In this document: one piece after another, positions 3,232 to 40,067 of the stretch
Layout of the letters: the number at the start of each line of letters is the position of its first letter
Numbering within the stretch: position 1 is the first letter of the stretch
DNA from: an uncultured Flavonifractor sp.
GTDB taxonomy: Bacteria; Bacillota; Clostridia; Oscillospirales; Oscillospiraceae
Assembly: GCA_944385575.1 (NCBI GenBank)
Contig: CALWXT010000012.1
Location: forward strand, 1-40,067
Reading direction: 5' to 3'
DNA length: 40,067 nt
The notes under the pieces: generated by a model
Seen by the model: only the letters and a program-made list of their open reading frames with translations
The model's database searches: none
Told to the model about the DNA's origin: nothing
Program-made: the position numbers and the translations under genes

Positions 3232-4443
3232 ATGGATATGACTGCTCGCCTGCAAGGGCATCAGAAATGGATTCAGGCGGAACTGGAGCGCAGCGTGGCG
3301 TTCTGGCTGAAGAACGGTATGGATCTGGTACATGGAGGTGTTTACACCTGCCTGGACCGAGAGGGAAAGGTGTTTTCCACCGATAAGAGCGTGTGGATGC
3401 AGGGCCGCTGTGCCTGGACCTTTGCCTATCTGTGCCACGTGTACGGAGTGAAGGAAGAGTGGCTGAACGCCAGCCGCAGCTGCCTGGAGTTTATGGAGAA
3501 GTACTGCATCAACCGGGAGGCCGGCAACCGCATGTACTTCACCGTTACCGGCGACGGCAAGCCCCTGCGTCAGCGCCGCTACTGCTTCTCTGAGGGATTC
3601 TATGCCATCGCCAACGCGGAGTATTACGGTGTGACCGGCGACAAGGTCTGCCTGGAGCGGGCCCGGGCGGCTTATGAGCTGATTTGGAACCTGAACCAGG
3701 GCCTGATTCAGGACCCCACCGGCATGGGTCCCAAGACCATTCCCGAGACCCGGTCCGGCCGCGCCCTGGCCAACCCCATGATTTACCTGAACATCACCTC
3801 CGTGCTGCGCCGGGTAGACCCGGAGCAGGAGGCCCTGTACGATCAGCGGGCTGCCCAGTGTGTGGATGAGATCTTCCGCTACCACTATAAACCCGAACTG
3901 GGCTGTACCCTGGAGAGCGTGGGCCCCAACGGTGAGTTCCGGGGCGATGTCACCGAGGGCCGCGTGGTCAACCCCGGCCATGACATCGAGTGCTCCTGGT
4001 TTCTGATGGAGGACGCCAACCGCCGCGGAAACAAGGACCAGCACGCCACCGCTGTGAAGATCTTTGACCAGGCCATTGAGGTCGGCTGGGACTACGAGTA
4101 CGGCGGTCTGCTCTACTTTATCGACTGCCTGGGCCGTCCCCCCGAGGCCTATGAGCACGACATGAAGCTGTGGTGGCCTCATGATGAGATCCTCATCGCC
4201 TCCCTGATGATCTACCGCGACACTGGCGACGAGAAGTACCTGACCTGGTTTGAGCGCACCCTGGACTACTGCAAGGAGCACTTCTCCGACCCCGAGTACG
4301 GCGACTGGTACGGCTATCTCCGCCGGGACGGCAAGCCCACCATGCCCGCCTGCAAGGGTTCCACCTTCAAGGGCCCCTTCCATCTGCCCCGTATGCTCAT
4401 CATGTGCGACCAGATGCTGGGGCAGCTGCTGGGCAAAGAATGA
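3232..4443 (+). CDS. N-acylglucosamine 2-epimerase (AGE/RnBP family)
   Basis: This 403-residue cytoplasmic enzyme interconverts ManNAc and GlcNAc. The AGE family (alpha6/alpha6 barrel, about 390-420 residues) is shown by NGMDLVHGGVYTCLDREG and KSVWMQGRCAWTFAYL near the N terminus, VVNPGHDIECSWFLM in the middle and LWWPHDEILIASLM further on; the two His residues in the GHDIE and WPHDE motifs match the catalytic histidines of the family. The start is taken at ATG 3232, 12 bases after AAGGTGGG; a TTG at 3223 is too close to that site. It is first in the forward sialic acid operon, 10 bases before rpiR. It puts epimerisation before phosphorylation, so NanE (ManNAc-6-P epimerase) is not needed. 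Cellobiose 2-epimerase is a relative, but context favours ManNAc. Confidence 0.88.
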   Translation: MDMTARLQGHQKWIQAELERSVAFWLKNGMDLVHGGVYTCLDREGKVFSTDKSVWMQGRCAWTFAYLCHVYGVKEEWLNASRSCLEFMEKYCINREAGNRMYFTVTGDGKPLRQRRYCFSEGFYAIANAEYYGVTGDKVCLERARAAYELIWNLNQGLIQDPTGMGPKTIPETRSGRALANPMIYLNITSVLRRVDPEQEALYDQRAAQCVDEIFRYHYKPELGCTLESVGPNGEFRGDVTEGRVVNPGHDIECSWFLMEDANRRGNKDQHATAVKIFDQAIEVGWDYEYGGLLYFIDCLGRPPEAYEHDMKLWWPHDEILIASLMIYRDTGDEKYLTWFERTLDYCKEHFSDPEYGDWYGYLRRDGKPTMPACKGSTFKGPFHLPRMLIMCDQMLGQLLGKE

Positions 4444-6901: not shown

Positions 6902-7843
6902 ATGGCGCAAAATCCCGCACCGGCTGTCGCCGGGGGAAAGGTCAAAAAGCAAAAACGATCCCAGTTCTCCGGCATGAGCAAGGCGCTGGTCCGGAGAGAG
7001 ACTATTTCTGCCTACATGTTCCTGCTGCCCAGCCTGATTTTCTTCGTGGGATTTGTGGTGATCCCCATGATCATGTGTCTGGTGTACAGCTTCCTGGACA
7101 TGGGGCTGGACGTCGGTTCGGCCAAGTTCATCGGACTGAGCAACTATGTTGAGATGTTCAATGACCCTGTGTTCCGCAAGGGCCTGCTCAATACCGTGAT
7201 TATCGTGGTGGTGGCGGTGCCCTCCGTTACCGCTTTTTCCCTGTGGGTGAGTTCCGCTATCTATCAGATGAAGGCGGTCACCCGGTCCTTCTTCCGCTGT
7301 GTGTTTTATCTGCCTGTGGTCACCGGCACCGTGGCGGTCACCGTTGTGTGGAAGTGGATGTTCAATACTTACAACGGCCTGATCAACCAGGTGTTCGGCA
7401 GCACCCACAATTGGCTGGGCGATCCCAGCACCGCCCTGGCCTGTATCATCATGATCCTGTTTACCACTTCCATCGGCCAGCCCATCGTGCTTTACGTGGC
7501 GGCTCTGGGCAACGTGGACCAGTCTCTGGTCGAGGCGGCCCAGGTGGACGGTGCCACCAAGCTCCAGGTGTTCTGGAAGATCAAGTGGCCCCAGATCATG
7601 CCCACAACTCTGTATATTCTGGTGATTACCACCATTAACTCCTTCCAGTGCTTCGCCCTGATCCAGCTGCTGACCCGCGGCGGACCCAACCACGCCACAG
7701 ACACGATCATGTACTACATCTTCGATATGGCGTACAATGTCCACCGATTCGGTTATGCAAATGCCATGGGCGTGATCCTGGCCATCATCATTGCGATTTT
7801 CTCTGCTATTCAGTTTAAAGTCGCCAAGACGGACAACGGTTAA
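6902..7843 (+). CDS. ABC sugar permease, MalF/UgpA type
   Basis: 313 residues with about six membrane segments after a basic cytoplasmic lead; the first segment is MFLLPSLIFFVGFVVIPMIM. The cytoplasmic EAA loop is VEAAQVDGATKLQVFWKIKW, the contact for the ATPase. The ATG at 6902 follows AGAGGGGGAGA. It pairs with the next permease and the binding protein as a CUT1 carbohydrate importer. It is downstream of the hairpin at 6824-6860. Confidence 0.9.
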   Translation: MAQNPAPAVAGGKVKKQKRSQFSGMSKALVRRETISAYMFLLPSLIFFVGFVVIPMIMCLVYSFLDMGLDVGSAKFIGLSNYVEMFNDPVFRKGLLNTVIIVVVAVPSVTAFSLWVSSAIYQMKAVTRSFFRCVFYLPVVTGTVAVTVVWKWMFNTYNGLINQVFGSTHNWLGDPSTALACIIMILFTTSIGQPIVLYVAALGNVDQSLVEAAQVDGATKLQVFWKIKWPQIMPTTLYILVITTINSFQCFALIQLLTRGGPNHATDTIMYYIFDMAYNVHRFGYANAMGVILAIIIAIFSAIQFKVAKTDNG

Positions 7844-7855
7844 GGAGGTGAGAGG

Positions 7856-8701
7856 ATGAATTCCGCAAAGAGCAAGCTGTCCGGTACTTCCACCGGCTAT
7901 AAGGTGTTTACTATCGTGATCCTGGTGCTGCTGGCGATCTTCTTCATCTTCCCACTGTACTGGATCATCACCGGCTCCTTCAAGGACGCCGCCACTATCA
8001 ACGCGCCCAATCCCCAGTGGTTCCCGCTGAACCCCACGCTGGAGAACTACGCCAAGCTGTTTAAGCAGCCCGCCTTCCAGTGGCTGCTGAACATTATCAT
8101 CATCTGCGTGGGCGCTCTGGTGCTCACCTGCCTGACCGCCTCTCTGGCCGGTTACGCGCTGGCCAAGAAGCGCTTCTACGGCCGGGGCATCCTGTTCACC
8201 ATCATCATCTGCGCCATGGCTCTGCCCAAGCAGGTCATCGTTATCCCCCTGCTTCAGGAAATGAGCATGATCGGCCTCCACGACACTCTGCTGGCCGTCA
8301 TCCTGCCCACCGTCGGCTGGCCTTTCGGCGTGTTCCTGATGAAGCAGTTTGCCGAGACCATCCCCACCGAGATCCTGGAAGCCGCCCGTGTGGACGGCGC
8401 GGGCGAACTGCGCACCTTCTTCAGCGTAGTTTTCCCCATGATCAAGCCGGGTATCGGCGCGCTGGCCATCTTCACCTTCGTGAATACCTGGAACGACTAC
8501 TTCATGCAGTTGATCATGCTGAACAGCCGCGAGATGTGGACCCTGCCTGAAGGCATTGCCCGTCTCCAGGGCGAAATGTCTTCCGACTTCGGCCTTATCA
8601 TGGCCGGCGCCACTCTGGCCGCCGTGCCCATCGTGGCGGTGTTTATCGCCTTCCAGAAGTACTTCACCCAGGGCATTTCCATGGGCGCCGTCAAGGGCTG
8701 A
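7856..8701 (+). CDS. ABC sugar permease, MalG/UgpE type
   Basis: 281 residues with six membrane segments (first: FTIVILVLLAIFFIFPLYWII) and an EAA loop ILEAARVDGAGELRTFF. AAGGAGGTGA directly upstream gives strong translation. It starts 12 bases after the first permease. The pair of permeases forms the membrane channel; no ATPase gene lies directly next, but an MsmK-type ATPase is at the end of the operon. Confidence 0.9.
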   Translation: MNSAKSKLSGTSTGYKVFTIVILVLLAIFFIFPLYWIITGSFKDAATINAPNPQWFPLNPTLENYAKLFKQPAFQWLLNIIIICVGALVLTCLTASLAGYALAKKRFYGRGILFTIIICAMALPKQVIVIPLLQEMSMIGLHDTLLAVILPTVGWPFGVFLMKQFAETIPTEILEAARVDGAGELRTFFSVVFPMIKPGIGALAIFTFVNTWNDYFMQLIMLNSREMWTLPEGIARLQGEMSSDFGLIMAGATLAAVPIVAVFIAFQKYFTQGISMGAVKG

Positions 8702-9660: not shown

Positions 9661-10413
9661 ATGCGAATTTATCAATCGGAAGATTACAATGCCATGAGCC
9701 GTCGGGCGGCCAATATCATCTCCGCCCAGGTGATTTATAAGCCCGACTGCGTGCTGGGCCTGGCTACCGGTGGTACCCCCGTGGGCACCTATAAGCAGCT
9801 GGTGGACTGGTACAAGAAGGGCGACCTGTCCTTCGCTGAGGTGCGCTCCGTCAACCTGGATGAGTACCTGGGCCTGTCCCCCCACCATGAGCAGAGCTAC
9901 CGCTACTTCATGCAGAGCAACCTGTTCGACCATATCGACATCAAGCCTGAGAACACTCACGTGCTCAACGGCCTGGCCAAGGACCCCCAGGCGGAGTGCG
10001 CGGCCTACAACAAGTTGATCCAGGACCTGGGCGGCATTGATCTGCAGCTGCTGGGTATGGGCCACAACGGCCACATTGCCTTCAACGAGCCCGGCGACGA
10101 CTTTGGCCTGGAGACCCATGTGGTCACTCTGACCGAGAGCACCATCGAGGCCAACAAGCGCTTCTTCGAGAGCCGGGACGAGGTGCCCCGCCACGCCCTG
10201 AGCATGGGCATCAAGAACATCATGAATGCCCGGCGCATCCTGATGGTGGTCAGCGGCGAGGATAAGGCGGATGCGGTGGTCAAGGCCTTTGCTGGCCCGG
10301 TCACCAAGGACGTGCCCGCCTCCGTGCTGCAGCTGCACCCCGACGTGACCCTGGTGGCCGATAAGGCTGCCCTGAGCAAGCTGGTGGAAGCGGGTGTGCC
10401 CGTATGCGGATAA
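9661..10413 (+). CDS. nagB: Glucosamine-6-phosphate deaminase
   Basis: 250 residues, the usual length for Gram-positive NagB. It converts glucosamine-6-phosphate to fructose-6-phosphate and ammonia. LGLATGGTPVGTY (32-44) is the phosphate-binding signature, VNLDEY carries the catalytic Asp67, and GHNGHIAFNEP holds His137 and Glu142. It starts 18 bases after nanA and its end overlaps the start of nagA by 10 bases, so the two are translationally coupled. The last catabolic step before glycolysis. Confidence 0.95.
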   Translation: MRIYQSEDYNAMSRRAANIISAQVIYKPDCVLGLATGGTPVGTYKQLVDWYKKGDLSFAEVRSVNLDEYLGLSPHHEQSYRYFMQSNLFDHIDIKPENTHVLNGLAKDPQAECAAYNKLIQDLGGIDLQLLGMGHNGHIAFNEPGDDFGLETHVVTLTESTIEANKRFFESRDEVPRHALSMGIKNIMNARRILMVVSGEDKADAVVKAFAGPVTKDVPASVLQLHPDVTLVADKAALSKLVEAGVPVCG

Positions 10414-11525
10414 CCGGCGGTCAGGTTTTCGACCTGCATGAGGGGTTCGTCCAGCGCGATGTGTGCTTTGATGGCCGCCTCCTTTCCAATTCCAGCACTG
10501 ACGGTCAGAGCTATGATGCGTCCGGCTGCTATGTGATCCCCGGCCTTACTGACCTGCACTTCCATGGCTGCAAGGGGTATGACTTCTCCGATGCCGACCC
10601 GGAGGGCCTGCAGGTCATGGCCGAGTACGAGCTGTCCCGGGGCGTGACTCAGATCTGCCCTGCCGGCATGACTCTGCTGGAGGAACAGCTGACAAAGGTG
10701 TGCCAGGTGGCTGCCGCCCATAAGGAGGCCGACAAGCCCGGTGCCGCCCTGTGCGGCATCAACCTGGAGGGACCCTTCCTCTCCATGGCTAAGAAGGGTG
10801 CCCAGAACGGCGCCTGGCTCCACGCACCCGACGTGGCCATGTTCCGGCGGCTGATGGCCGCTTCCCATGGCCTGGTCAAGCTGGTGTCCCTGGCTCCCGA
10901 GGAGCCCGGCGCCATGGAATTTGTGGAGGCTGTGGAAGGGGAGGTCACCGTTTCCCTGGCCCACACCACTGCCGACTATGATACTGCCATGGAGGCCTTC
11001 CGGCTGGGCGCCCGTCAGGTGACCCACCTGTTCAATGGTATGCCTCCCTTCAGCCACCGCGCTCCCGGCGTGGTAGGCGCCGCCCTGGACACGCCCCTGT
11101 GCAATGTGGAGCTGATCTGTGACGGTGTCCATATCCACCCCTCTGTGGTGCGGGCGGTATTCAAGATGTTCGGCGCCAAGCGGGTCATCCTGATCTCCGA
11201 CACCATGCGGGCCGCCGGTATGCCTGACGGCGCTTACACCCTGGGCGGTCAGGATGTGACTGTGAAGGGCAAACATGCCACCCTGGCCGACGGCACCCTG
11301 GCCGGCTCGGTCACCGATCTGATGAACTGCATGAAGACCGCAGTTTCCTTCGGCATCCCCCTGGCGGACGCCGTGCGGGCGGCGGCGGTGAACCCCGCCA
11401 AGGCCATCGGCATTTTCAGCCGGGCAGGCAGCCTGGAGCCCGGCAAGCGGGCCAATGTGGTCATTCTGGACGAGAATCTGGACGTAAAGGACGTCTTTTT
11501 CCGCGGCAAGCTGGTCAGCCGCTGA
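10404..11525 (+). CDS. nagA: N-acetylglucosamine-6-phosphate deacetylase
   Basis: 373-residue amidohydrolase that removes acetate from GlcNAc-6-phosphate. Metal and catalytic motifs are present: DLHFHG (His52, His54), INLEGPF with the metal Glu, SLAHTTADYD, QVTHLFNGMPP and LISDTMRAAG with the catalytic Asp. It keeps both His of the HxH motif, as in Bacillus-type enzymes. The start ATG lies inside the end of nagB, a 10-base overlap. It feeds GlcN-6-P to NagB. Confidence 0.93.
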   Translation: MRITGGQVFDLHEGFVQRDVCFDGRLLSNSSTDGQSYDASGCYVIPGLTDLHFHGCKGYDFSDADPEGLQVMAEYELSRGVTQICPAGMTLLEEQLTKVCQVAAAHKEADKPGAALCGINLEGPFLSMAKKGAQNGAWLHAPDVAMFRRLMAASHGLVKLVSLAPEEPGAMEFVEAVEGEVTVSLAHTTADYDTAMEAFRLGARQVTHLFNGMPPFSHRAPGVVGAALDTPLCNVELICDGVHIHPSVVRAVFKMFGAKRVILISDTMRAAGMPDGAYTLGGQDVTVKGKHATLADGTLAGSVTDLMNCMKTAVSFGIPLADAVRAAAVNPAKAIGIFSRAGSLEPGKRANVVILDENLDVKDVFFRGKLVSR

Positions 11526-31882: not shown

Positions 31883-32698
31883 TTGAAAGAGTATTATCAG
31901 ATCCACGAATTGGCCAAATTGTTCGATCTCTGCCCCGATACCCTGCGCTATTACGAGGAAAAGGGGCTGCTCCACCCTGACCGGGGGGAGAACCGTTATC
32001 GAAAATACGGCATCCAGGACATCTGTACCCTGAACATCATCCGTTCCCTCCGGGAGCTGGATCTGCCTACCGGGGAGATCCGAGGGTATTTGGAGCGGCG
32101 GAGCGTGGGGGAGACTTTGGAGCTGCTGGACCGGGAGGAAGATTTGCTCCGCCGCCGGATGGCGGAGTTGGAGGAAGCCTGCCGGGAGGCGGAGGAGCGC
32201 CGGGAACGGCTGGAACGCTACCGCGCGGTGGAGGCCGGGCAGGTAGCGTTTCTGGAGGAAGCGGAGCGGCCCTATGTGTTTCTGGAAAAGGACTTCATTC
32301 TGGAGAAGGAGGTGGACTTCCAGCTCAAGCGGCTGGAGCAGCGCCACCAGGATTACATCCAGGTCATCGGCAGCCAGTGTATGGGGGCGCAGGTGGACGA
32401 GGAGAGCCTGAAAAAGGGGATTTATAACCACTTTTCCCGGGTATTTTTCCTTACTCGGCCCGGCCTGCCCTATGACGATCTGCTGCCCGGCGGGGAATAT
32501 GCCAGGCTGTACTACCGGGGGGAATACGACCGTATGGAGGAGCATATGGCCACGCTGCTGGCGGGTATCCAGGCCGCTGGCCGGGTACCTGCGGGAGCGC
32601 CGCTGGAGCTCTACCGCATCGACGCTCACGACACCAATCATCCGGAGGAATATGTCACCGAACTCCAGGTGCGGGTGAAGTCTGCGAGAGAAGACTGA
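31883..32698 (+). CDS. MerR family regulator with GyrI-like effector domain
   Basis: 271 residues. The winged-helix opening YYQIHELAKLFDLCPDTLRYYEEKGLLHPDR and YRKYGIQDICTLNIIRSLRELD are standard MerR; a coiled coil follows (about 90-120, rich in Glu/Arg), then a GyrI-like small-molecule domain (about 140-270). The start is TTG 31883 with CAGGAGG nine bases upstream. It resembles BmrR-type multidrug sensors and is divergent to the MATE exporter, its likely target. Confidence 0.88.
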   Translation: MKEYYQIHELAKLFDLCPDTLRYYEEKGLLHPDRGENRYRKYGIQDICTLNIIRSLRELDLPTGEIRGYLERRSVGETLELLDREEDLLRRRMAELEEACREAEERRERLERYRAVEAGQVAFLEEAERPYVFLEKDFILEKEVDFQLKRLEQRHQDYIQVIGSQCMGAQVDEESLKKGIYNHFSRVFFLTRPGLPYDDLLPGGEYARLYYRGEYDRMEEHMATLLAGIQAAGRVPAGAPLELYRIDAHDTNHPEEYVTELQVRVKSARED

Positions 32699-32715
32699 CA
32701 TTTCTTTAGACAAAC

Positions 32716-32751
32716 AAGAATCCCCATCGCGGTTTGCGATGGGGATTCTTT
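32716..32751. terminator. Terminator between merR and gntR genes
   Basis: AAGAATCCCCATCGC (32716-32730), GGTTT loop, GCGATGGGGATTCTT (32736-32750), then T. Confidence 0.88.
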
Positions 32752-32772
32752 ATGCTGTTGACACAAAAGGAA

Positions 32773-33543
32773 TCAATCTGCAGAAAGGGGAAACAGCACC
32801 TCGATGCGATCCAGCTGGCGTATTAAGGCATCCTTGTCGCTGTCAATTTGCTCTCTACGGTAGAACATATCAACATGGCTGGATTCTAATTGTTCGGGAT
32901 GGAGTAGTACCTCCCGCATGATTGCAGTAACGGCACGAATGGCCGAGCGTTTTTGGTAGCGGTGGCAGCGGACCGCACCTTCCACATCACCACGCTCTAC
33001 AAGAGAGATCAGTTTATCATGCAACCGGAGGGATTCCGGGATGTAGTGCGACGCGATCAGGGAAGTGCTCGTCCGACCGGTTTGGTATAGCTCGTTCAGG
33101 TATTCTTTCAGATAACGGTAGGGAGAGTGTTCATAAAAGCTGGAGTAGAACTGATGATTGACAACCATATATCGTACAATATTATTTCCCTCGTATAGCG
33201 TATACAAATTTTTAAGTGTATCACGCATGGCATGAATATCATCGCTTGTGATATAGGGAATTGCCGTTTTCAGACAGAGGATTTCGACCTCATTGCGGAG
33301 CGCGGTGGCCTCAAAGATCTTTTCTACATCGATGTCCGCGACCTTTGTGCCTGTGTAAGGGACGGTATGTACAAGACCTTCATGAAACAGTTGGGAAAGT
33401 GCCTCGCGGATGGGAATATAACTCATACCGTATTTTGCTGCCAGTGTTCGGATCACCAGCTTGTCGCCTGGCTTTAGGTTGCCGCAGAGAATATCGTTTT
33501 TTATTTGATGGTAGGCAAAATCCTTTTTGGTTTCAAACTGCAT
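32773..33543 (-). CDS. GntR family (FCD-type) transcriptional regulator
   Basis: 256 residues. The N-terminal winged helix is AYHQIKNDILCGNLKPGDKL then AAKYGMSYIPIREALSQLFHEGLV, the GntR signature (usual 'SRTPVREAL' is SYIPIREAL here). The C-terminal helical FCD domain has ATALRNEVEILCLKTA, NHQFYSSFYEHSPY and a His in SLRLHDKLISLVERGD. It is divergent to the aldolase-transporter operon and is its likely repressor, sensing a carboxylate. Codon use is AT-richer than the genes to its left. Confidence 0.9.
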   Translation of the reverse strand: MQFETKKDFAYHQIKNDILCGNLKPGDKLVIRTLAAKYGMSYIPIREALSQLFHEGLVHTVPYTGTKVADIDVEKIFEATALRNEVEILCLKTAIPYITSDDIHAMRDTLKNLYTLYEGNNIVRYMVVNHQFYSSFYEHSPYRYLKEYLNELYQTGRTSTSLIASHYIPESLRLHDKLISLVERGDVEGAVRCHRYQKRSAIRAVTAIMREVLLHPEQLESSHVDMFYRREQIDSDKDALIRQLDRIEVLFPLSAD

Positions 33544-33781
33544 ACAAATCCTCCCTGTATGTCAGAAATAAAAGCATAGGAGCCACAACGCCAGAAATGT
33601 GGAGAAAAAAGGAAAACAATTGAGGTGGTTAGATATTATTATAGTTTACAATTAAAAAAAAGTAAATGAACAACTGGTGAATTTAAACATTTCTCGCAAT
33701 GACGAAAAAAGTCGAATACGGAGATTCTGACAAAAAAATAAAACTTGGAACTAGCACAATAAATAAAAGTGTAGAAGCGCA

Positions 33782-33811
33782 TTGACAAAAAAATGTTCAA
33801 CATGCTATTTT
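33782..33811 (+). promoter_or_regulatory. Promoter of the aldolase-transporter operon
   Basis: TTGACA (33782-33787), 18-base spacer, TATTTT (33806-33811). A perfect dyad ATGTT-C-AACAT (33793-33803) fills the spacer. Confidence 0.65.
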
Positions 33812-33819
33812 TAAATAAA

Positions 33820-33851
33820 ATGATATATTATATATCATAAATCATATATCA
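33820..33851. promoter_or_regulatory. Probable GntR operators
   Basis: Perfect 19-base palindrome with ATGATATAT (33820-33828) and ATATATCAT (33830-33838) around T33829, plus a repeated half-site ATATATCA (33844-33851). They lie downstream of the -10, a repression position. Confidence 0.6.
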
Positions 33852-33876
33852 AAGAATGTGAAAGGAGCGGACGACA

Positions 33877-34686
33877 ATGCGGATTCCGGGATGCAAAACG
33901 ATGAAACAGCGGCTGCAGGATGGAGAGGTTCTGTTTGGAACTTTTTACAAATTCAACTGTGCGCCTGTGGTGGAAATGTTGGGACTGGCAGGCATGGATT
34001 TTATTATCGTCGATGGCGAGCATGGCGACTATAGTTACCGAGACATGCAGGACATGTGCCGGGTGGCGAACGGGGTCGGCATGAATGCCGTAATCCGGGT
34101 GCCCAGCTCTTCAGCGGAGCATATCCTGCATGCTGGAGATATGGGTGCTCAGGGAATACAGGTACCCAATGCCAAGACTGTGGAAGAAGCCCGGACGGCG
34201 GCGGAAAATATGCGCTATGCACCTGTGGGTACCCGGGGATTGGGACTGACAACCCGGGCTTCCGGGTATTGCCTGGGTGAAGATTTTATCGACAATCAGG
34301 ACTATATCCACTATGTCAACCATGAATTGCTCTCCGTTATCATGGTTGAAAATCAGGAGTTGGCCAACAAGATTGATGAGCTGTGCGAGATCCCCCAGGC
34401 CGATGTGTTTTTCATCGGTACTGGAGACCTGAGTCAGTCCTGTGGCGTAACGGGCCAGTCTGGTCATCCGAAGGTGCAGGAGCTGGTGAAGCACGTGATT
34501 GAAACTGTCCAAGCGAAAGGAAAAATCGGCGGTATTTATGCTGGCAGCATTGAAGATGCACAGAAGTATGTAGACATGGGATTTCAATATATCGGATTCA
34601 GTTCAGAGATGAACTTTATCGCAGAAAAGTTTAAGGATGTGATGCGGGGCGTCAACAAGGTCAAAGCGAGTGTAAAAAAGCAATAG
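33877..34686 (+). CDS. HpcH/HpaI family aldolase
   Basis: 269 residues of the class II pyruvate aldolase family. Motifs: FIIVDGEHGDYSY (general base His), NAVIRVPSSSAEHI (Arg), GAQGIQVPNAKTVEEA, VMVENQELANKID with metal Glu written as IMVENQE, and FIGTGDLSQSCG with metal Asp. Relatives split 4-hydroxy-2-oxo acids into pyruvate and an aldehyde or semialdehyde. It is the first gene of an operon with a carboxylate transporter and a BKACE enzyme. The actual substrate cannot be read from the sequence. AAAGGAG precedes the ATG. Confidence 0.87.
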   Translation: MRIPGCKTMKQRLQDGEVLFGTFYKFNCAPVVEMLGLAGMDFIIVDGEHGDYSYRDMQDMCRVANGVGMNAVIRVPSSSAEHILHAGDMGAQGIQVPNAKTVEEARTAAENMRYAPVGTRGLGLTTRASGYCLGEDFIDNQDYIHYVNHELLSVIMVENQELANKIDELCEIPQADVFFIGTGDLSQSCGVTGQSGHPKVQELVKHVIETVQAKGKIGGIYAGSIEDAQKYVDMGFQYIGFSSEMNFIAEKFKDVMRGVNKVKASVKKQ

Positions 34687-34718
34687 GGGAGCAGATGCGT
34701 TCTGCGGAGGAAACAACA

Positions 34719-35771
34719 ATGATTGGAAAGAAAGAATGGTATCTTATGAAAAAGTACTTGAGGATGGCGTGCCTGGCCTGTGCCGCGATGCTGCTGCTGG
34801 TGCTCTGCGCCTGTGGCCAGAGTTCGGATCAGAAGGAAATTCAGTCACCTGCGGCGGGAACCTCGGATACTCAGAATCCGTCCGCTCAGGGAGAGGAATG
34901 GCCCACTCAGCCCATCAATGTCATTGTTTCCTTTGGTGCTGGCGGTGATACGGACATTCTTTGCAGAAAACTTTGCGATATCATGTCCGAGGAACTGGGC
35001 GTACCCATCGTGTGCACCAATGTAGAGGGATCTTCCGGAACAGTGGCGGCCAGACAGGTAAAGGATTCGGCAGCGGACGGCAATACCGTGCTGTGGCACC
35101 AGAGTTCGTTCCTGGTAGCCAGCGCCACCGGTATTGCGGACTTTGACTATACGGACTTTGAGATTGCAGGTGTGGCGGTTGAGGAAGTGTCCGACTGCCT
35201 CATGGTACGTAAGGGCAGCTATGATGGGTTTGAAGACTTTATCCAGGCGGCAAAGGATCATCCTGGCGAGCTGAACTATGGCACCTCTCTGGGCGGCTAT
35301 TCTCATATGCAGGCGCTGGCTGTTGCAGATGCCTTTGATGTGGACTTTAACATTGTGGACATTGGCGGTGGTTCTGAGACGATTGCCGCGCTGCTGGCCG
35401 GAGATATTGACTTTGTCATTACCACCAATAACTATGCCCGTACTTACGTGGAGTCCGGTGACTGTGAAGTCCTGTGTGTCGTTGCAAATGAGCGCTGTGA
35501 CATCACGCCCGATTGGCCGGCTATGAGTGAGTTTGGTGAGAACTGCGACATTACAAAGTTTTTCGGATTCTACATGCCCAAGGGCACTGATCCTGCTATC
35601 GTGGAGAAATGGTCTGAGGCAGTAGACCATGCTGTAAACTCCGAGGAGTACAGCGAGACCTGTGAGCAGTATGCAGTTACACCTGCCTATAGTACCGGCG
35701 AAGAGGCGTTGGAAATGCACAATACCCAGTATGAGATGGCTAAAAAGTACGCTCAGGAGATGATTAACTAA
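34719..35771 (+). CDS. Tripartite tricarboxylate transporter, substrate-binding lipoprotein (TctC type)
   Basis: 350 residues. A basic lead and hydrophobic stretch end in LVLCAC, a lipobox with Cys32, then a Ser/Gln/Ala linker. The mature domain starts WPTQPINVIVSFGAGGDTDILCRKL, the TctC/Bug signature, and includes GTSLGGYSHMQALAVADAF and GDIDFVITTNN. Bug-type proteins bind carboxylates. The start is ATG 34719 with GGAGG eight bases upstream; ATG 34746 is an alternative that keeps the signal. Followed by the two membrane subunits. Confidence 0.9.
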   Translation: MIGKKEWYLMKKYLRMACLACAAMLLLVLCACGQSSDQKEIQSPAAGTSDTQNPSAQGEEWPTQPINVIVSFGAGGDTDILCRKLCDIMSEELGVPIVCTNVEGSSGTVAARQVKDSAADGNTVLWHQSSFLVASATGIADFDYTDFEIAGVAVEEVSDCLMVRKGSYDGFEDFIQAAKDHPGELNYGTSLGGYSHMQALAVADAFDVDFNIVDIGGGSETIAALLAGDIDFVITTNNYARTYVESGDCEVLCVVANERCDITPDWPAMSEFGENCDITKFFGFYMPKGTDPAIVEKWSEAVDHAVNSEEYSETCEQYAVTPAYSTGEEALEMHNTQYEMAKKYAQEMIN

Positions 35772-35793
35772 GGCCCACAAGGAGTGTGGATAT

Positions 35794-36315
35794 ATGAAAG
35801 ATTCGATATTACGTTTACTCCACTGGTATCGGGATGCTCTGGCTGCTGCGGTGCTGCTGCTGATTTTCGCATTCTTTCTTTCTTCCAGCCGCCATATCCA
35901 GGTCATGATTGCCTCTAGTGTGGATGCGAAGTTTTTTCCTATCGTAATCTGTACGTTCGGCATTATCCTGTGTGCTGTTAATGTAGCGGCAGGGGTTGTG
36001 CGGGGAAATAAGCTGCGCAGGAAGGAAATTGAAGAAGCAATTGGGCCCAATGTTTCGCCGGAGGAGAAGTCTGCCGCAATAAAATCTGTACTTTCCATTG
36101 TATCTATTATTGTATATCTGGTACTGATTGAACCGTTGGGCTTTGTAATTGCCTCTGCGTTGTATCTGTTTGTACAGATTATGCTCTTATCCGAGCGGGG
36201 AAAGCGGAATCCCATACTCTATGTGGTGATTGCTGTAGTGGTATCCGCTGCCTGCTATCTGTTTTTCCGGAACGTATTTTACCTGATGCTGCCCAGCGGG
36301 CTCCTCCCGCTTTAG
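35794..36315 (+). CDS. Tripartite tricarboxylate transporter, small membrane subunit (TctB type)
   Basis: 173 residues with four hydrophobic segments (about 15-30, 48-68, 98-125 and 140-165). The block ASSVDAKFFPIVICTFGIILCAVN matches the conserved 'P..lP.i' opening of TctB proteins, and FVIASALYLFVQIMLLSERGKRNP lies in the second half. Poorly conserved in general; identified mainly through order between TctC and TctA. AAGGAG lies ten bases upstream. Confidence 0.85.
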   Translation: MKDSILRLLHWYRDALAAAVLLLIFAFFLSSSRHIQVMIASSVDAKFFPIVICTFGIILCAVNVAAGVVRGNKLRRKEIEEAIGPNVSPEEKSAAIKSVLSIVSIIVYLVLIEPLGFVIASALYLFVQIMLLSERGKRNPILYVVIAVVVSAACYLFFRNVFYLMLPSGLLPL

Positions 36316-36327
36316 GAGGTGATTGAG

Positions 36328-37827
36328 ATGCAATTATTTCTTTCCAGCCTCGCTCAGATTATGACCCCGATGATTCTTCTCTACATCCTGCTGGGTGTGG
36401 TGATGGGCCTGGTTTTTGGTGCAATCCCTGGCCTGACAGGAACCATGGCGATTGCCCTATGTCTGCCGCTTACGTTTGGTATGGAGCCGACCATGGCATT
36501 TGCACTGCTGATTGCGCTTTATATCGGAGGTATCTCCGGCGGCCTGGTGTCTGCTATCCTGATCAACATTCCCGGCACCCCGTCTTCGGTGGCGACTACA
36601 TTTGACGGCGCGCCTATGGCAAGAAATGGCCAGGCAGGTAAAGCGTTGGGCGCGGGCACATTTTATTCCCTGGTGGGAAATATTTTTGGTATTGCGGTCA
36701 TGATCTTTGTTGCCCCCATGCTGGCTCAGGTGGCACTGAAGTTTGGTGTATATGAATACACAGCGGTCTCATTATTTGCGCTCTCCCTGGTGTCCGGCCT
36801 GGCAGGAAAGTCCGTGACAAAAGGTCTGGTGAGTTGTGCGGTTGGCATGCTGCTGGGATGCTTCGGTGCAGCTCCAATCGACGGCTATGCGCGCTTTACC
36901 TTTGGAATCAGCGGCCTGGAGGCAGGCTTTGCCAGCGTTCCGGCACTGGTTGGCCTGTACGCCCTCAAGGAACTGCTGGCGGAAGCCAAGCCTTCTGGAA
37001 AAGTCAACATCCTGGATGTGGATACCCATATCAAGGGTCTTGGATTCAGCAAGAAAGAATTTGTATGCCAGATCCCCAATATGATACGCTCTGCACTGAT
37101 CGGAGCATGGATCGGTATTCTGCCTGGCATCGGTGGTGCAACAGCTAATATCATGGCCTACGGCATTGCAAAAAAACGATCCAAATACCCTGAGAAGTTT
37201 GGAACCGGCATCATCGACGGCGTGGTGGCATCGGAGACAGCCAACAATGCTACCATCGGCGGTGCTATGATTCCCCTGCTTACGCTGGGCATCCCTGGTG
37301 ATGCGGTAACGGCTATTCTGCTGGGCACTTTTACAATCCACGGACTGCAGCCCGGCCCGCTGTTTTTCAGCCAGAACTATGACCTGATCTATACCATTTT
37401 TGCTGCCATGATTGTGGCCAGCGTTGTTACCTTCCTGGTTCAGCTCTTTGGCATGCGCGGTTTTATCAAAGTTCTGAAACTGCCCAAGCATATCCTGCTG
37501 CCCATCGTGATCGTACTTTGTGTTGTGGGATCCTTTGGTGTAAACAACAGGCTGTTTGATGCATGGGTTCTGATTATCTTTGGCCTGATTGGATACATTA
37601 TGAGCAAATTTGATTATCCGTTGGCGCCTATCATTCTGGGCTTTATCCTTGGGCCGATCACTGAAACCTATATGCGCCGTGGTCTGCAGCTTAGCAAGGG
37701 CAGTTTCCTTCCGTTCCTGACGCGTCCGATTTCCGGCGTGTTTATTGTACTTACTGTAGTTTTCATTGCTCTTACCATCATTAGCAGCATTAGAAAGAGC
37801 AAACGCGCAGAAGCGACCAATCTGTAA
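36328..37827 (+). CDS. Tripartite tricarboxylate transporter, large membrane subunit (TctA type)
   Basis: 499 residues with about eleven membrane segments. The TctA signature is plain: GLVFGAIPGLTGTMAIALCLPLTFGM and ALYIGGISGGLVSAILINIPGTPSSVATTFDG, mirrored in the second half by GILPGIGGATANIMAYGIAKKRS and TLGIPGDAVTAILLG. It forms the carboxylate channel driven by an ion gradient. The start is ATG 36328, eight bases after AGGAGG, which overlaps the end of tctB; GTG 36319 is too close. Confidence 0.95.
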   Translation: MQLFLSSLAQIMTPMILLYILLGVVMGLVFGAIPGLTGTMAIALCLPLTFGMEPTMAFALLIALYIGGISGGLVSAILINIPGTPSSVATTFDGAPMARNGQAGKALGAGTFYSLVGNIFGIAVMIFVAPMLAQVALKFGVYEYTAVSLFALSLVSGLAGKSVTKGLVSCAVGMLLGCFGAAPIDGYARFTFGISGLEAGFASVPALVGLYALKELLAEAKPSGKVNILDVDTHIKGLGFSKKEFVCQIPNMIRSALIGAWIGILPGIGGATANIMAYGIAKKRSKYPEKFGTGIIDGVVASETANNATIGGAMIPLLTLGIPGDAVTAILLGTFTIHGLQPGPLFFSQNYDLIYTIFAAMIVASVVTFLVQLFGMRGFIKVLKLPKHILLPIVIVLCVVGSFGVNNRLFDAWVLIIFGLIGYIMSKFDYPLAPIILGFILGPITETYMRRGLQLSKGSFLPFLTRPISGVFIVLTVVFIALTIISSIRKSKRAEATNL

Positions 37828-37832
37828 AAAAA

Positions 37833-37861
37833 GAAGCCGCCGCGCATTGCACGGCGGCTTC
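37833..37861 (+). terminator. Hairpin between tctA and the BKACE gene
   Basis: GAAGCCGCCG (37833-37842), 9-base loop, GGCGGCTTC side at 37852-37861. The tail TCTATAC is a weak U tract, so partial termination is likely. Confidence 0.65.
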
Positions 37862-37887
37862 TCTATACAATTCGGAGGAATGTAGAA

Positions 37888-38817
37888 ATGGCACAGAAGA
37901 AAGCGATCCTTACTGCCGCTGTCAGTGGTGCAGTACATACTCCTGAGATGAGTCCCTACCTTCCTGTTACGCCGGAGGAAATTATTCGGCAGTCCGTAGA
38001 AGCCTATGAAGCGGGAGCGGCTGTGGTACACATCCATGCCAGGACCCCGGAGAGTGGTGAACCAACCTCAGATCTGAAGATTATGCATCAAATTATATCT
38101 GGCATTAAGCGACGGTGTGACGTTATCATCTGCATTACGACTGGTGCTAGTCAGATGATGACGACCCAGGAACGACTGGCTGTGGTGCCGGAGTTTCAGC
38201 CGGAGTTGGCTTCGTGCAATGCGGGGGCCATGAATTTTGTGCTTGCCGGACTGCTTGATCATCTTCCGGAGCATAGCCCAGAGTGGGCAAAGCGCTATCT
38301 GGGGGGCACTTATGATAACGTGTTTTCAAACACCTATCTGGGCATGGAAACCTACATCCGCACCATGCAGGACAATGGGACAGTTCCTGAATTTGAGATT
38401 TATGATGCTGGTATGATAAACAATGTAGCCTACTTTCGGAAAAAAGGAATCCTTACTGCTCCGGTTTATCTCCAATTTGTCCTGGGAGTACAAGGCGGAC
38501 TTCCGGCAACTGTGGACAACCTGGTCTTTTTGCGTGCAACAGCGGAGCGTCAACTGGGCGACAGCTTCAGCTGGTCGGTAGCAGCGGCAGGCAAGGCACA
38601 ATTTCCTATTGCTGCGGCAGGATTGGCTATGGGGGGTGGCGTTCGCGTGGGACTGGAAGACAACCTTTATATTCGTCCCCGTGAACTGGCGCAGTCAAAC
38701 GCACAGCAAATCCAAGCTGCTGCTGAACTTGCGCGGATTCTGGGGCGGGAAATCGCAGCTCCGGAGGAGGCAAGAAAGATTCTGGGTCTTAAAGGGTCAG
38801 ACCGAGTTAGGTTTTAA
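37888..38817 (+). CDS. Beta-keto acid cleavage enzyme (BKACE, DUF849)
   Basis: 309 residues. BKACE enzymes condense a beta-keto acid with acetyl-CoA and release acetoacetate plus a new CoA ester. Zinc ligands are His48 and His50 in VVHIHART; the Arg, Glu and Asp of RVGLED (spacing identical to Arg226, Glu230, Asp231 of the lysine-pathway enzyme Kce) are kept. AVSGAVHTPEMSPYLPVTPEEI is the conserved opening. The lysine fermentation partners (kamA, kdd and others) are absent, so the substrate is probably not 3-keto-5-aminohexanoate. GGAGGAA precedes the ATG. Confidence 0.92.
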   Translation: MAQKKAILTAAVSGAVHTPEMSPYLPVTPEEIIRQSVEAYEAGAAVVHIHARTPESGEPTSDLKIMHQIISGIKRRCDVIICITTGASQMMTTQERLAVVPEFQPELASCNAGAMNFVLAGLLDHLPEHSPEWAKRYLGGTYDNVFSNTYLGMETYIRTMQDNGTVPEFEIYDAGMINNVAYFRKKGILTAPVYLQFVLGVQGGLPATVDNLVFLRATAERQLGDSFSWSVAAAGKAQFPIAAAGLAMGGGVRVGLEDNLYIRPRELAQSNAQQIQAAAELARILGREIAAPEEARKILGLKGSDRVRF

Positions 38818-38831
38818 AGGGAGGCATAAAT

Positions 38832-39593
38832 ATGAACGAGTATCCATGGAAAGAAATTGTTCCCCGGCTTACTGAGCTGCTCCACCTGTATAACACGCCG
38901 GTAGGGATGAAATGGATTGCTGAGGAAAATGAACTGGCAGCGATTCCCCGGCTGCGTACACATGAAAAGCATCTTCCTCCCTGTGTAATTGTTAGCCAGG
39001 CGGGACAATTCAATTGGACAGTGGCGTGCAGGTATGAGAATTTTCATGCTGACTACTGCCGGTGCATTAACGGCTTTTCTGAGCCGGATGACAGGTGGGA
39101 GTCTGGGAAAATGTTTGATCAGGTATGGTTTGACAATGCGGATGCCGCTGCGGCCCATAACCGGAGCTTACTGCGAATGCCTGCAAAGTATGTCGCCATT
39201 GTAGCGTCTCCGCTGGTTGCCGAGCGCATACAACCGGATGTCTGTGTACTGTATGTCAACGCTTCTCAGGCATTTTTGCTACTGGCGGGATATCAGTTTA
39301 AGACATATGAAAAGATGGAATTTAGTTTTGTAGGAGAATCTACATGCTCTGATTCCTGGGTGAAGACCTTTTTAACGGGAAAGCCGGCAATGGCGCTGCC
39401 ATGCTTTGCCGACAGAAAATTTGCCGGAGTCAGTGAGCAAGACCTGCGTCTCACATTTACGCCCCAAGGGCTGAAGCTGGCGGTGGAGGGAGTGGAGGGC
39501 TTGTTCCGAAATGGCCTGCGCTATCCTATTGCCTCGTACAGCCTGACGAGTGATATTCTGGCTGGACTGCCTGAACATTACCTGAAGTTCTAA
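38832..39593 (+). CDS. DUF169 family protein
   Basis: 253 residues. The pattern LYNTPVGMKWI near the start, KHLPPCVIVSQAGQFNWTVACRYENFHADYCRCINGF, and MALPCFADRKFAGVSEQDLRLTFTP in the second half fit the DUF169 family (uncharacterised, often with conserved cysteines). Cys occurs in PPCVI, VACRY, DYCRC and LPCFA, so a metal or cluster site is conceivable. It is 14 bases after the BKACE gene, with AAAGGGAGG upstream, and closes the island. No function is known; co-location with BKACE suggests a role in the same pathway. Confidence 0.72.
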   Translation: MNEYPWKEIVPRLTELLHLYNTPVGMKWIAEENELAAIPRLRTHEKHLPPCVIVSQAGQFNWTVACRYENFHADYCRCINGFSEPDDRWESGKMFDQVWFDNADAAAAHNRSLLRMPAKYVAIVASPLVAERIQPDVCVLYVNASQAFLLLAGYQFKTYEKMEFSFVGESTCSDSWVKTFLTGKPAMALPCFADRKFAGVSEQDLRLTFTPQGLKLAVEGVEGLFRNGLRYPIASYSLTSDILAGLPEHYLKF

Positions 39594-39674
39594 TATTGGC
39601 TTCGGAGTGAAAATCCATACGCCGTATAAGGACAAACCGTGTCGGAATACAGTGGGACCAGGAGGTGTGACCTA

Positions 39675-40067
39675 TGTTTCCAGCCTGGATCCTGCTGACA
39701 CTCAATCATTTGTTTTTTACCCTGCGGCTCTCTGGCGGAACAGCCAGCTCATTCCCGCGGCCCCTGAAGGCGGAGGAGGAGCGGCAGTACTTGGAGCTGG
39801 CTGCTCAGGGTGACCTGGAAGCCCGCAATAAGCTGATTGAGCACAACCTGCGCCTGGTGGCCCATATCATGAAAAAATACTATACCCCCAATGGAGACCA
39901 GGACGACCTGATTTCCATTGGAACCATTGGACTGATCAAGGGGATCAGTACCTTCCGTCCGGATAAGAAGGTGCGGCTTGCCACTTATGCGTCACGGTGC
40001 ATTGAAAATGAAATCCTTATGTATTTTCGGGCCCAAAGGAAAAGCCAGGGGGACCTCTCTCTGTCCG
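39675..40067 (+). CDS. sigK: RNA polymerase sporulation sigma factor SigK (partial, runs off the window)
   Basis: 131 codons are visible. After a hydrophobic lead [19 protein letters not shown] the mature part follows with [57 protein letters not shown] and [18 protein letters not shown], the SigK/SigE region 2 with core-binding and -10 recognition helices. The lead resembles the pro-sequence of B. subtilis pro-SigK, which is cleaved by SpoIVFB. The frame is unbroken as far as seen, so no skin-like interruption in the first 131 codons. GGAGGTGTG precedes the ATG. It shows the host can sporulate. Confidence 0.92.

Follow-up and report, generated by a model that had tools for sequence, protein, structure and literature searches.

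A GntR-linked aldolase-TctCBA-BKACE-DUF169 operon in an uncultured Flavonifractor as a possible horizontally acquired unit of carboxylate catabolism

In a 40,067-nucleotide stretch of contig CALWXT010000012.1 from an uncultured Flavonifractor sp. (the window), we analysed a regulator gene and a six-gene operon encoding an HpaI-type aldolase, the transporter TctCBA, a beta-keto acid cleavage enzyme (BKACE) and a DUF169 protein. The block that contains these genes is one discrete unit, an insertion relative to five same-genus genomes, and the operon appears to have been horizontally acquired as one block. We see about an even chance that it is a catabolic operon gained by horizontal transfer and repressed by GntR, which takes up a carboxylate and yields pyruvate, acetoacetate and an acyl-CoA, and the class of mechanism is likely.

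The insertion was recognised from the neighbouring MerR gene, which we searched for in 20 same-genus genomes and found in 19, the window's own being one of them; ten loci were fetched. In five of these (G118, G690, G692, G697 and G700; G-numbers are genomes, L-numbers fetched loci and C-numbers contigs of the window's own draft genome) the site is empty, with a sigK-like gene following MerR within ~50 bp, while G022, G182, G232 and G689 have a different 0.9-1.3 kb piece between the two genes and G688 gave no sigK match in its 8-kb stretch. None of the ten stretches contained the GntR, HpaI, TctA, BKACE or DUF169 gene of the unit. The window departs from the shared sequence at ~32680, within the last MerR codons, and rejoins it at ~39620. 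The GC content of the block is 0.495 versus 0.608 upstream, and the GC content at third codon positions (GC3) is 0.49-0.59 in its seven genes versus 0.75-0.86 in the five upstream genes measured. No mobility gene was seen among the genes of the block. The sigK-like gene of the window (39674-40066) is truncated by the contig end, and in six of the ten relatives (L201-L210) the sigK match spans just 66-71 residues, as if interrupted, perhaps by a skin-like element.

A BKACE-anchored scan of 84,980 species genomes, with two patterns that favour one BKACE group, gave 73 loci, whose neighbour lists are incomplete because the gene caller used misses genes. Only one of them, from an uncultured Oscillibacter (L099), has the whole unit; there the genes are contiguous and the GntR gene runs in the same direction as the others. 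Identity to the window is 66% for GntR, 83% for HpaI, 74% for TctC, 55% for TctB, 86% for TctA, 70% for BKACE and 67% for DUF169, and the GC content of the L099 unit is 0.53 versus 0.61-0.62 in its flanks.

The two units also have a palindrome in common. In the window, the 19-bp perfect palindrome ATGATATATTATATATCAT lies 8 bases past the second promoter hexamer and 38 bases ahead of the aldolase ATG. In L099, where the GntR orthologue lies upstream of HpaI, a palindrome with identical arms (3910-3928) stops 21 bases short of the earliest candidate HpaI start (ATG 3950; alternative TTG 3959), and a related palindrome also precedes the GntR gene. None of 2000 shuffled pairs had a 9-1-9 palindrome in common, and palindromes of this kind at all turned up in 2 and 3 of 2000. 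The draft genome has no further site for ATGATATATTATATATCAT with 0 or 1 mismatch; at ≤2 mismatches it has one site outside this promoter, which is AT-rich and lies on C187. The classic GntR motif TNGTNNNACNA was not found near the promoter. From the palindrome we infer that the GntR protein binds at 33820-33838. Together with the empty sites, the compositional break and the whole unit in L099, this operator-like palindrome bears out the view of a preliminary description of this DNA that the unit is self-contained.

The same description had listed one regulator and six co-directional genes of named families, and all seven open frames are indeed intact, with products that match those families above the Pfam cut-offs (Table 1). 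The regulator gene is divergent, and the six other genes are separated by short gaps. TctC, TctB and TctA are complete and adjacent and form a tripartite tricarboxylate transporter with a carboxylate as its predicted cargo. The listed TctC frame begins at 34695; in our reading, the ATG at 34740 yields a lipoprotein-like N-terminus. In consensus scans, promoter-like sites in the region numbered 15 versus 9.6 expected (standard deviation 3.2), and terminator-like sites, taken together, were no more frequent than in shuffles (6 versus a mean of 7.2).

Table 1. Features of the inserted block and its boundaries in the window
Feature	Position	Strand	Basis
Inserted block, ~6.9 kb, between MerR and sigK-like genes (ends approximate)	32681..39619		Comparison with same-genus loci and GC content
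Terminator-like hairpin, 15-bp stem, between MerR and GntR gene ends	32716..32750	-	Consensus scan
GntR regulator with FCD ligand-binding domain	32773..33543	-	Pfam GntR 57.6 bits, FCD 49.2 bits
Sigma-70-like promoter, TTGACA-18-TATTTT, ahead of aldolase gene	33782..33811	+	Consensus only
19-bp perfect palindrome, candidate GntR operator	33820..33838		Same arms in L099
HpaI/GarL-type class II pyruvate aldolase	33877..34686	+	Pfam HpcH_HpaI 75.9 bits
TctC solute-binding lipoprotein	34740..35771	+	Pfam TctC 117.3 bits
TctB small membrane subunit	35794..36315	+	Pfam TctB 79.4 bits
TctA large membrane subunit	36319..37827	+	Pfam TctA 507.5 bits
BKACE, long 310-aa type	37888..38817	+	Pfam BKACE PF05853 355.1 bits, residues 5-301
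DUF169 protein	38832..39593	+	Pfam DUF169 PF02596 144.4 bits

The aldolase has the fold family and the invariant residues of the class II pyruvate aldolases HpaI, GarL and RhmA/YfaU, and its solved relatives are PDB 2vws, 1dxe and 4b5s. Asp46, His49, Arg74 and Glu158 are invariant in nine aligned sequences including the window's, and presumably have the roles usually ascribed to them. The NCBIfam models of the family score the protein about alike (113-136 bits) and below every equivalog cut-off (HpaI, 134.6 versus 368.8; GarL, 133.7 versus 406.75; RhmA, 112.8 versus 441); therefore, its aldehyde partner cannot be assigned. It had no match at 1e-45 among 72,556 plasmid records. In L125, one of two HpaI copies (7030-7860) lacks the Asp of the GDLS motif, which we take to be a metal ligand, and may be inactive or altered in function.

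The BKACE keeps H46, H48 and E230 (zinc ligands) and E143, R226 and D231 (catalytic) in the numbering of Kce, the enzyme of lysine fermentation, roles that in part we assume. Its best NCBIfam match is the 3,5-dioxohexanoate model NF053538, at 401.2 bits and below the cut-off of 430, and neither enzyme of the unit can be named for its substrate since neither reaches an equivalog cut-off. Among the same plasmid records, 144 contain a BKACE at E ≤1e-60, all at <60% identity. A BKACE tree with 65 rows, drawn from 54 of the 73 loci, 8 genes of the window's own genome and 3 PDB chains (the 19 loci left out are mostly short, split or distant), has an 11-row branch at 100/99 that contains all ten DUF169-linked BKACEs used, plus L102; the tree tool warned that L125 sits on a long branch. 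Within this branch, the window BKACE groups with L093/L094 (98/40, weak) and the L099 BKACE with L095/L097/L098 (100/100). Since the two BKACEs fall in different groups despite the common HpaI-Tct genes, the BKACE-DUF169 pair may have joined separately, and because only the window and L099 have HpaI-Tct in common, the tree suggests that BKACE and DUF169 travel as a pair. Uneven rates (TctB is 55% identical) leave room for other readings of the tree. In the L163 assembly the BKACE frame (9998-10902) is split in two; the homologous L125 gene is intact.

The exact gene set is rare, yet it is part of a recurrent theme. The preliminary description had looked to a neighbourhood search for co-occurrence, which proved recurrent for the parts and rare for the exact set. 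DUF169 occurs in 9 of the 73 loci, all of the window type (L093-L099, L125 and L163; L097 is cut by a contig end), and an HpaI-type gene lies within the fetched flanks of eight (L096, L099, L101, L111, L114, L116, L125 and L163). An HpaI gene of the type found on C22 also lies ~11-12 kb upstream of the BKACE in G688, whose cluster is L095, and in G799 (L094). The wider anaerobe clusters in which the parts recur contain DUF6282, cupin and TRAP genes, a 4-hydroxybutyryl-CoA-dehydratase-like protein, an acyl-CoA dehydrogenase and a CoA-transferase, and their Oscillibacter and Flavonifractor TRAP forms carry extra LarA-like and enolase-superfamily genes. The TRAP form is carried by the cultured Oscillibacter sp. 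1-3 and probably by Flavonifractor sp. An10. The presence of CoA_trans genes in L096 and L101 would suit a BKACE that produces acetoacetate. Of the clusters observed, that of the window is the smallest.

The window's own draft genome (2.65 Mb, 204 contigs, 82% complete) gave matches to 10 BKACE, 2 DUF169 and 3 HpcH_HpaI genes (one weak). Each of the two DUF169 genes immediately follows a BKACE gene, and the two contigs concerned also carry the two strong HpaI genes. In a crude simulation with uniform positions, each coincidence (both DUF169 genes ≤1.2 kb from a BKACE; each HpaI ≤8 kb from its own DUF169) had a probability of ~6.5e-5, indicating that the grouping is more than chance. The second cluster, on C22 (L014), has its HpaI gene ~5.5 kb from its BKACE on the opposite strand and a DUF169 of another subfamily than the window's. 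It also contains an acyl-CoA dehydrogenase, DUF6282, two cupins, TRAP DctPQM, a sigma-54 activator, an OYE/BaiCD-like flavoenzyme, an acetyl-CoA-hydrolase-type CoA-transferase and a protein that scores 814.8 bits with PDB 1u8v, a gamma-aminobutyrate metabolism dehydratase/isomerase that we take to be 4-hydroxybutyryl-CoA dehydratase. This agrees with the earlier expectation that other steps are encoded elsewhere. In G695 (L067/L102) a C22-like cluster lacks DUF169 and the CoA-transferase, both missing together between BKACE and cupin. We kept a succinate-semialdehyde route in C22-type clusters, from the HpaI product to the 4-hydroxybutyryl-CoA-dehydratase-like protein, as an idea only, because the adjacent Fe-ADH is scored as a glycerol dehydrogenase and the dehydratase might just as well use the BKACE product. 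BKACE matches also lie on C35, C119, C71, C145, C34 and C20 (L015-L020). The one on C20 adjoins a BCCT transporter, whose best NCBIfam match is the L-carnitine/gamma-butyrobetaine antiporter (402 bits, below the cut-off of 541).

We propose the following working model for the breakdown of a short carboxylic acid. The GntR/FCD protein would occupy the palindrome at the promoter start and be released once it has bound an acid. TctC would capture the acid and TctBA would import it, as their families predict. By the family reaction, the HpaI-type aldolase would release pyruvate and an aldehyde from a 4-hydroxy-2-oxo acid, and the BKACE, whose catalytic residues are present, would convert a short beta-keto acid without an amino group and acetyl-CoA into acetoacetate and an acyl-CoA. 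Judging from its neighbours, DUF169 may act on the CoA-ester step or maintain its enzymes. The remaining steps (CoA transfer, dehydration and reduction) would come from other loci, most simply the BKACE-DUF169-HpaI cluster on C22.

The neighbours of DUF169 include several CoA-ester enzymes besides BKACE. In an alignment of nine sequences, the window-type subfamily has invariant C51, C76, C138 and C172 and the motif NxHAxYCR. A search of 400 family genomes gave 10 DUF169 matches in 9 genomes at E ≤1e-25, of which four are strong: by a BKACE in G000 and G688, between two CoA-transferases in G752 (L176) and by an acyl-CoA dehydrogenase in G032 (L175). Among the plasmid records the one relative (33% identity) lies directly ahead of a CoA ligase (L183). 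In 391 class genomes, the window DUF169 matched, besides its own gene, one gene in its own genome (on C22) and two distant ones, and a scan of a genome contig collection anchored on this single protein found nothing. The neighbours point to a probable role in CoA-ester chemistry, from a small sample in which the BKACE cases come mainly from the BKACE-anchored scan. No relative with a solved structure was found by sequence or profile search, and two alignments gave chance-level matches only. One DUF169 gene appears in a table of a selenium-gene study (PMC5322559) and another among Desulfovibrio genes that gave higher fitness with nitrate when disrupted (PMC4001038); the passages concerned give no biochemical role. 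G780 has DUF169 and HpaI remnants beside a cupin gene (L182 9498-10448), apparently a decayed C22-type cluster. Distant DUF169 genes in L177, L178 and L179 have SDR, OYE and TRAP-like neighbours, an arrangement reminiscent of steroid- or bile-acid-type clusters; a SnoaL-like gene also occurs in L177 and a similar one in L178. In L091 and L092, DUF169 lies between genes judged from their N-terminal letters to encode an ABC transporter ATPase-like and a NifH-like ATPase.

Several observations weigh against the operon as we read it. Aldolase relatives at E ≤1e-50 occur in just 4 of 400 family genomes (the window's, G032, G206 and G793), and only the window's has a Tct neighbour; the clusters of the other three (L187, L216 and L217) hold HpaI, DUF6282, cupin and TRAP genes, with an additional BKACE of another type in G206 and no BKACE within the fetched stretch in L187 and L217. 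The window and L099 BKACEs lie in different tree groups, each nearer to those of TRAP-type clusters than to the other. These last two findings make the preliminary idea of one imported acid passing through both the aldolase and the BKACE less secure. The longest exact string common to both aldolase promoters is 9 bases, and shuffles gave a mean of 8.6 and a largest value of 11; thus, the evidence for shared regulation is the palindrome, not general similarity. At the border of the block, the GC3 of the sigK-like flank (0.66) is intermediate between the block and the upstream genes. The five more distant DUF169 relatives among the ten family-genome matches (in G070, G147, G196 and two in G735) stand with SDR, OYE, SnoaL-like or uninformative genes and with no recognised CoA gene, an AlphaFold2 model of DUF169 from nine sequences was poor (mean pLDDT 43), and sequence alone yields no substrate. 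The transcript might instead serve two functions, an HpaI-TctCBA uptake-aldolase module and an appended BKACE-DUF169 cassette that disposes of an unrelated beta-keto acid. We consider this unlikely, without its being far-fetched: it would explain the separate BKACE groups of the only two loci that have HpaI-Tct in common, the HpaI clusters L187 and L217, and the DUF169 genes with no BKACE in the fetched stretch (L175 and L176), whereas two genera retain the set behind a common palindrome, and clusters with other arrangements (C22, L096, L125, L163 and G688/G799) likewise bring HpaI, BKACE and DUF169 together.

Other readings concern the substrate or the direction. A sugar-acid route like deoxyribonate breakdown, in which a 2-deoxy-3-keto sugar acid is cleaved by the BKACE and a 2-keto-3-deoxy acid by HpaI, would fit the sister clusters, where BKACE-DUF169 or DUF169 has neighbours of the enolase-superfamily, LarA-like and altronate-dehydratase types, and, according to passages of PMC6365646, deoxyribonate use in Pseudomonas simiae requires a BKACE. 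However, the seven genes include no dehydratase, dehydrogenase, lactonase or kinase, and the scores of HpaI fall well short of the GarL and rhamnonate-aldolase cut-offs, making this decidedly unlikely. We find it highly unlikely that the BKACE is the triacetate acetoacetate-lyase of the phloroglucinol pathway in polyphenol ring breakdown. NF053538 is its best match, BKACE15 accepts 3,5-dioxohexanoate (passages of PMC11961710) and Flavonifractor is reported to degrade flavonoids. The score, however, is below the cut-off, the characterised clostridial enzyme has Trp16 where the window has Val, and Trp types are other genes of the own genome (C35b, C35c and C119; a C71 fragment has the same motif). 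Ring reductase, cyclohydrolase and dehydrogenase genes are absent from the unit, the rest of the genome not having been searched for them. HpaI aldolases are reversible, and the operon could thus build a compound with its aldolase in the joining direction, a very slim chance given the importer in the same transcript, the lack of a biosynthetic partner, and the acetyl-CoA-consuming BKACE and CoA-transferase companions in kin clusters, which point to catabolism. For lysine fermentation, membership in the BKACE family is the one point in favour, and the chance is practically nil. The Kce equivalog model gives 271.1 bits (cut-off 382), and Val replaces the amino-group-binding Glu14, so the window BKACE is not the lysine-fermentation enzyme; a true Kce (418.6 bits) lies beside a true KDD (270.7, cut-off 200) on C34 instead. 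The preliminary description had also set this pathway aside, and score, residue and location lead us to reject it.

The horizontally acquired catabolic operon that we favour resembles several known systems in part. BKACE15 of Paracoccus denitrificans (PDB 8RIO/8RIP/9HNF) is likewise of the long type (full-length match 266 bits, 43% identity), its catalytic Glu171 and Arg254 are conserved in the window BKACE with Kce E143 aligning with the base E171, and both have a small apolar residue at the Glu14 position (Ile in BKACE15, Val in the window). Passages of PMC11961710 give 3-oxopentanoate, 3-oxohexanoate, 3,5-dioxohexanoate, 5-hydroxy-3-oxohexanoate and malonate semialdehyde as its substrates and mention no HpaI/Tct/DUF169 setting for it. 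CsTAL, the triacetate acetoacetate-lyase of Clostridium scatologenes, is also a clostridial BKACE that makes acetoacetate from a non-amino substrate; passages of PMC10470551 describe a phloroglucinol-pathway BKACE. CsTAL differs in Trp16 and in a pathway with ring-reducing and ring-opening enzymes that are absent from the unit. The P. simiae pathway similarly has transporters and a BKACE that cuts a sugar-acid-derived beta-keto acid, whereas it uses dehydrogenases, a lactonase and a glycerate kinase, with no mention of HpaI, Tct or DUF169 in those passages of PMC6365646. The HpaI-DUF6282-cupin-TRAP-BKACE clusters of Oscillibacter, Fusibacter and Youngiibacter (L096, L111, L114 and L125) likewise combine HpaI, BKACE and carboxylate uptake beside a regulator; they have TRAP in place of Tct, a sigma-54-type activator (family confirmed for the C22 copy) in place of GntR, and extra DUF6282, cupin and other genes. 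As the preliminary description had supposed, no account of a pathway with this gene set, nor of DUF6282, was found in searches of one open-access paper collection.

More broadly, we suggest tentatively, at rather less than an even chance, that an undescribed anaerobic pathway combines a pyruvate-aldolase with acetyl-CoA-dependent beta-keto acid cleavage and that the unit represents its smallest transferable version. In the same reading, window-type DUF169 would be a novel protein of acyl-CoA metabolism, either an enzyme or a protein with a cysteine-bound cofactor, that works with BKACE, CoA-transferases, CoA ligases or acyl-CoA dehydrogenases depending on the lineage. The unit offers a bounded, regulated and movable test case for the role of long BKACEs in gut Clostridia, for the function of DUF169 and for the acid that feeds the HpaI-DUF6282-cupin-BKACE clusters, and the two sister types, one with Tct and GntR and the other with TRAP and a sigma-54-type activator, provide two independent handles on the inducer.

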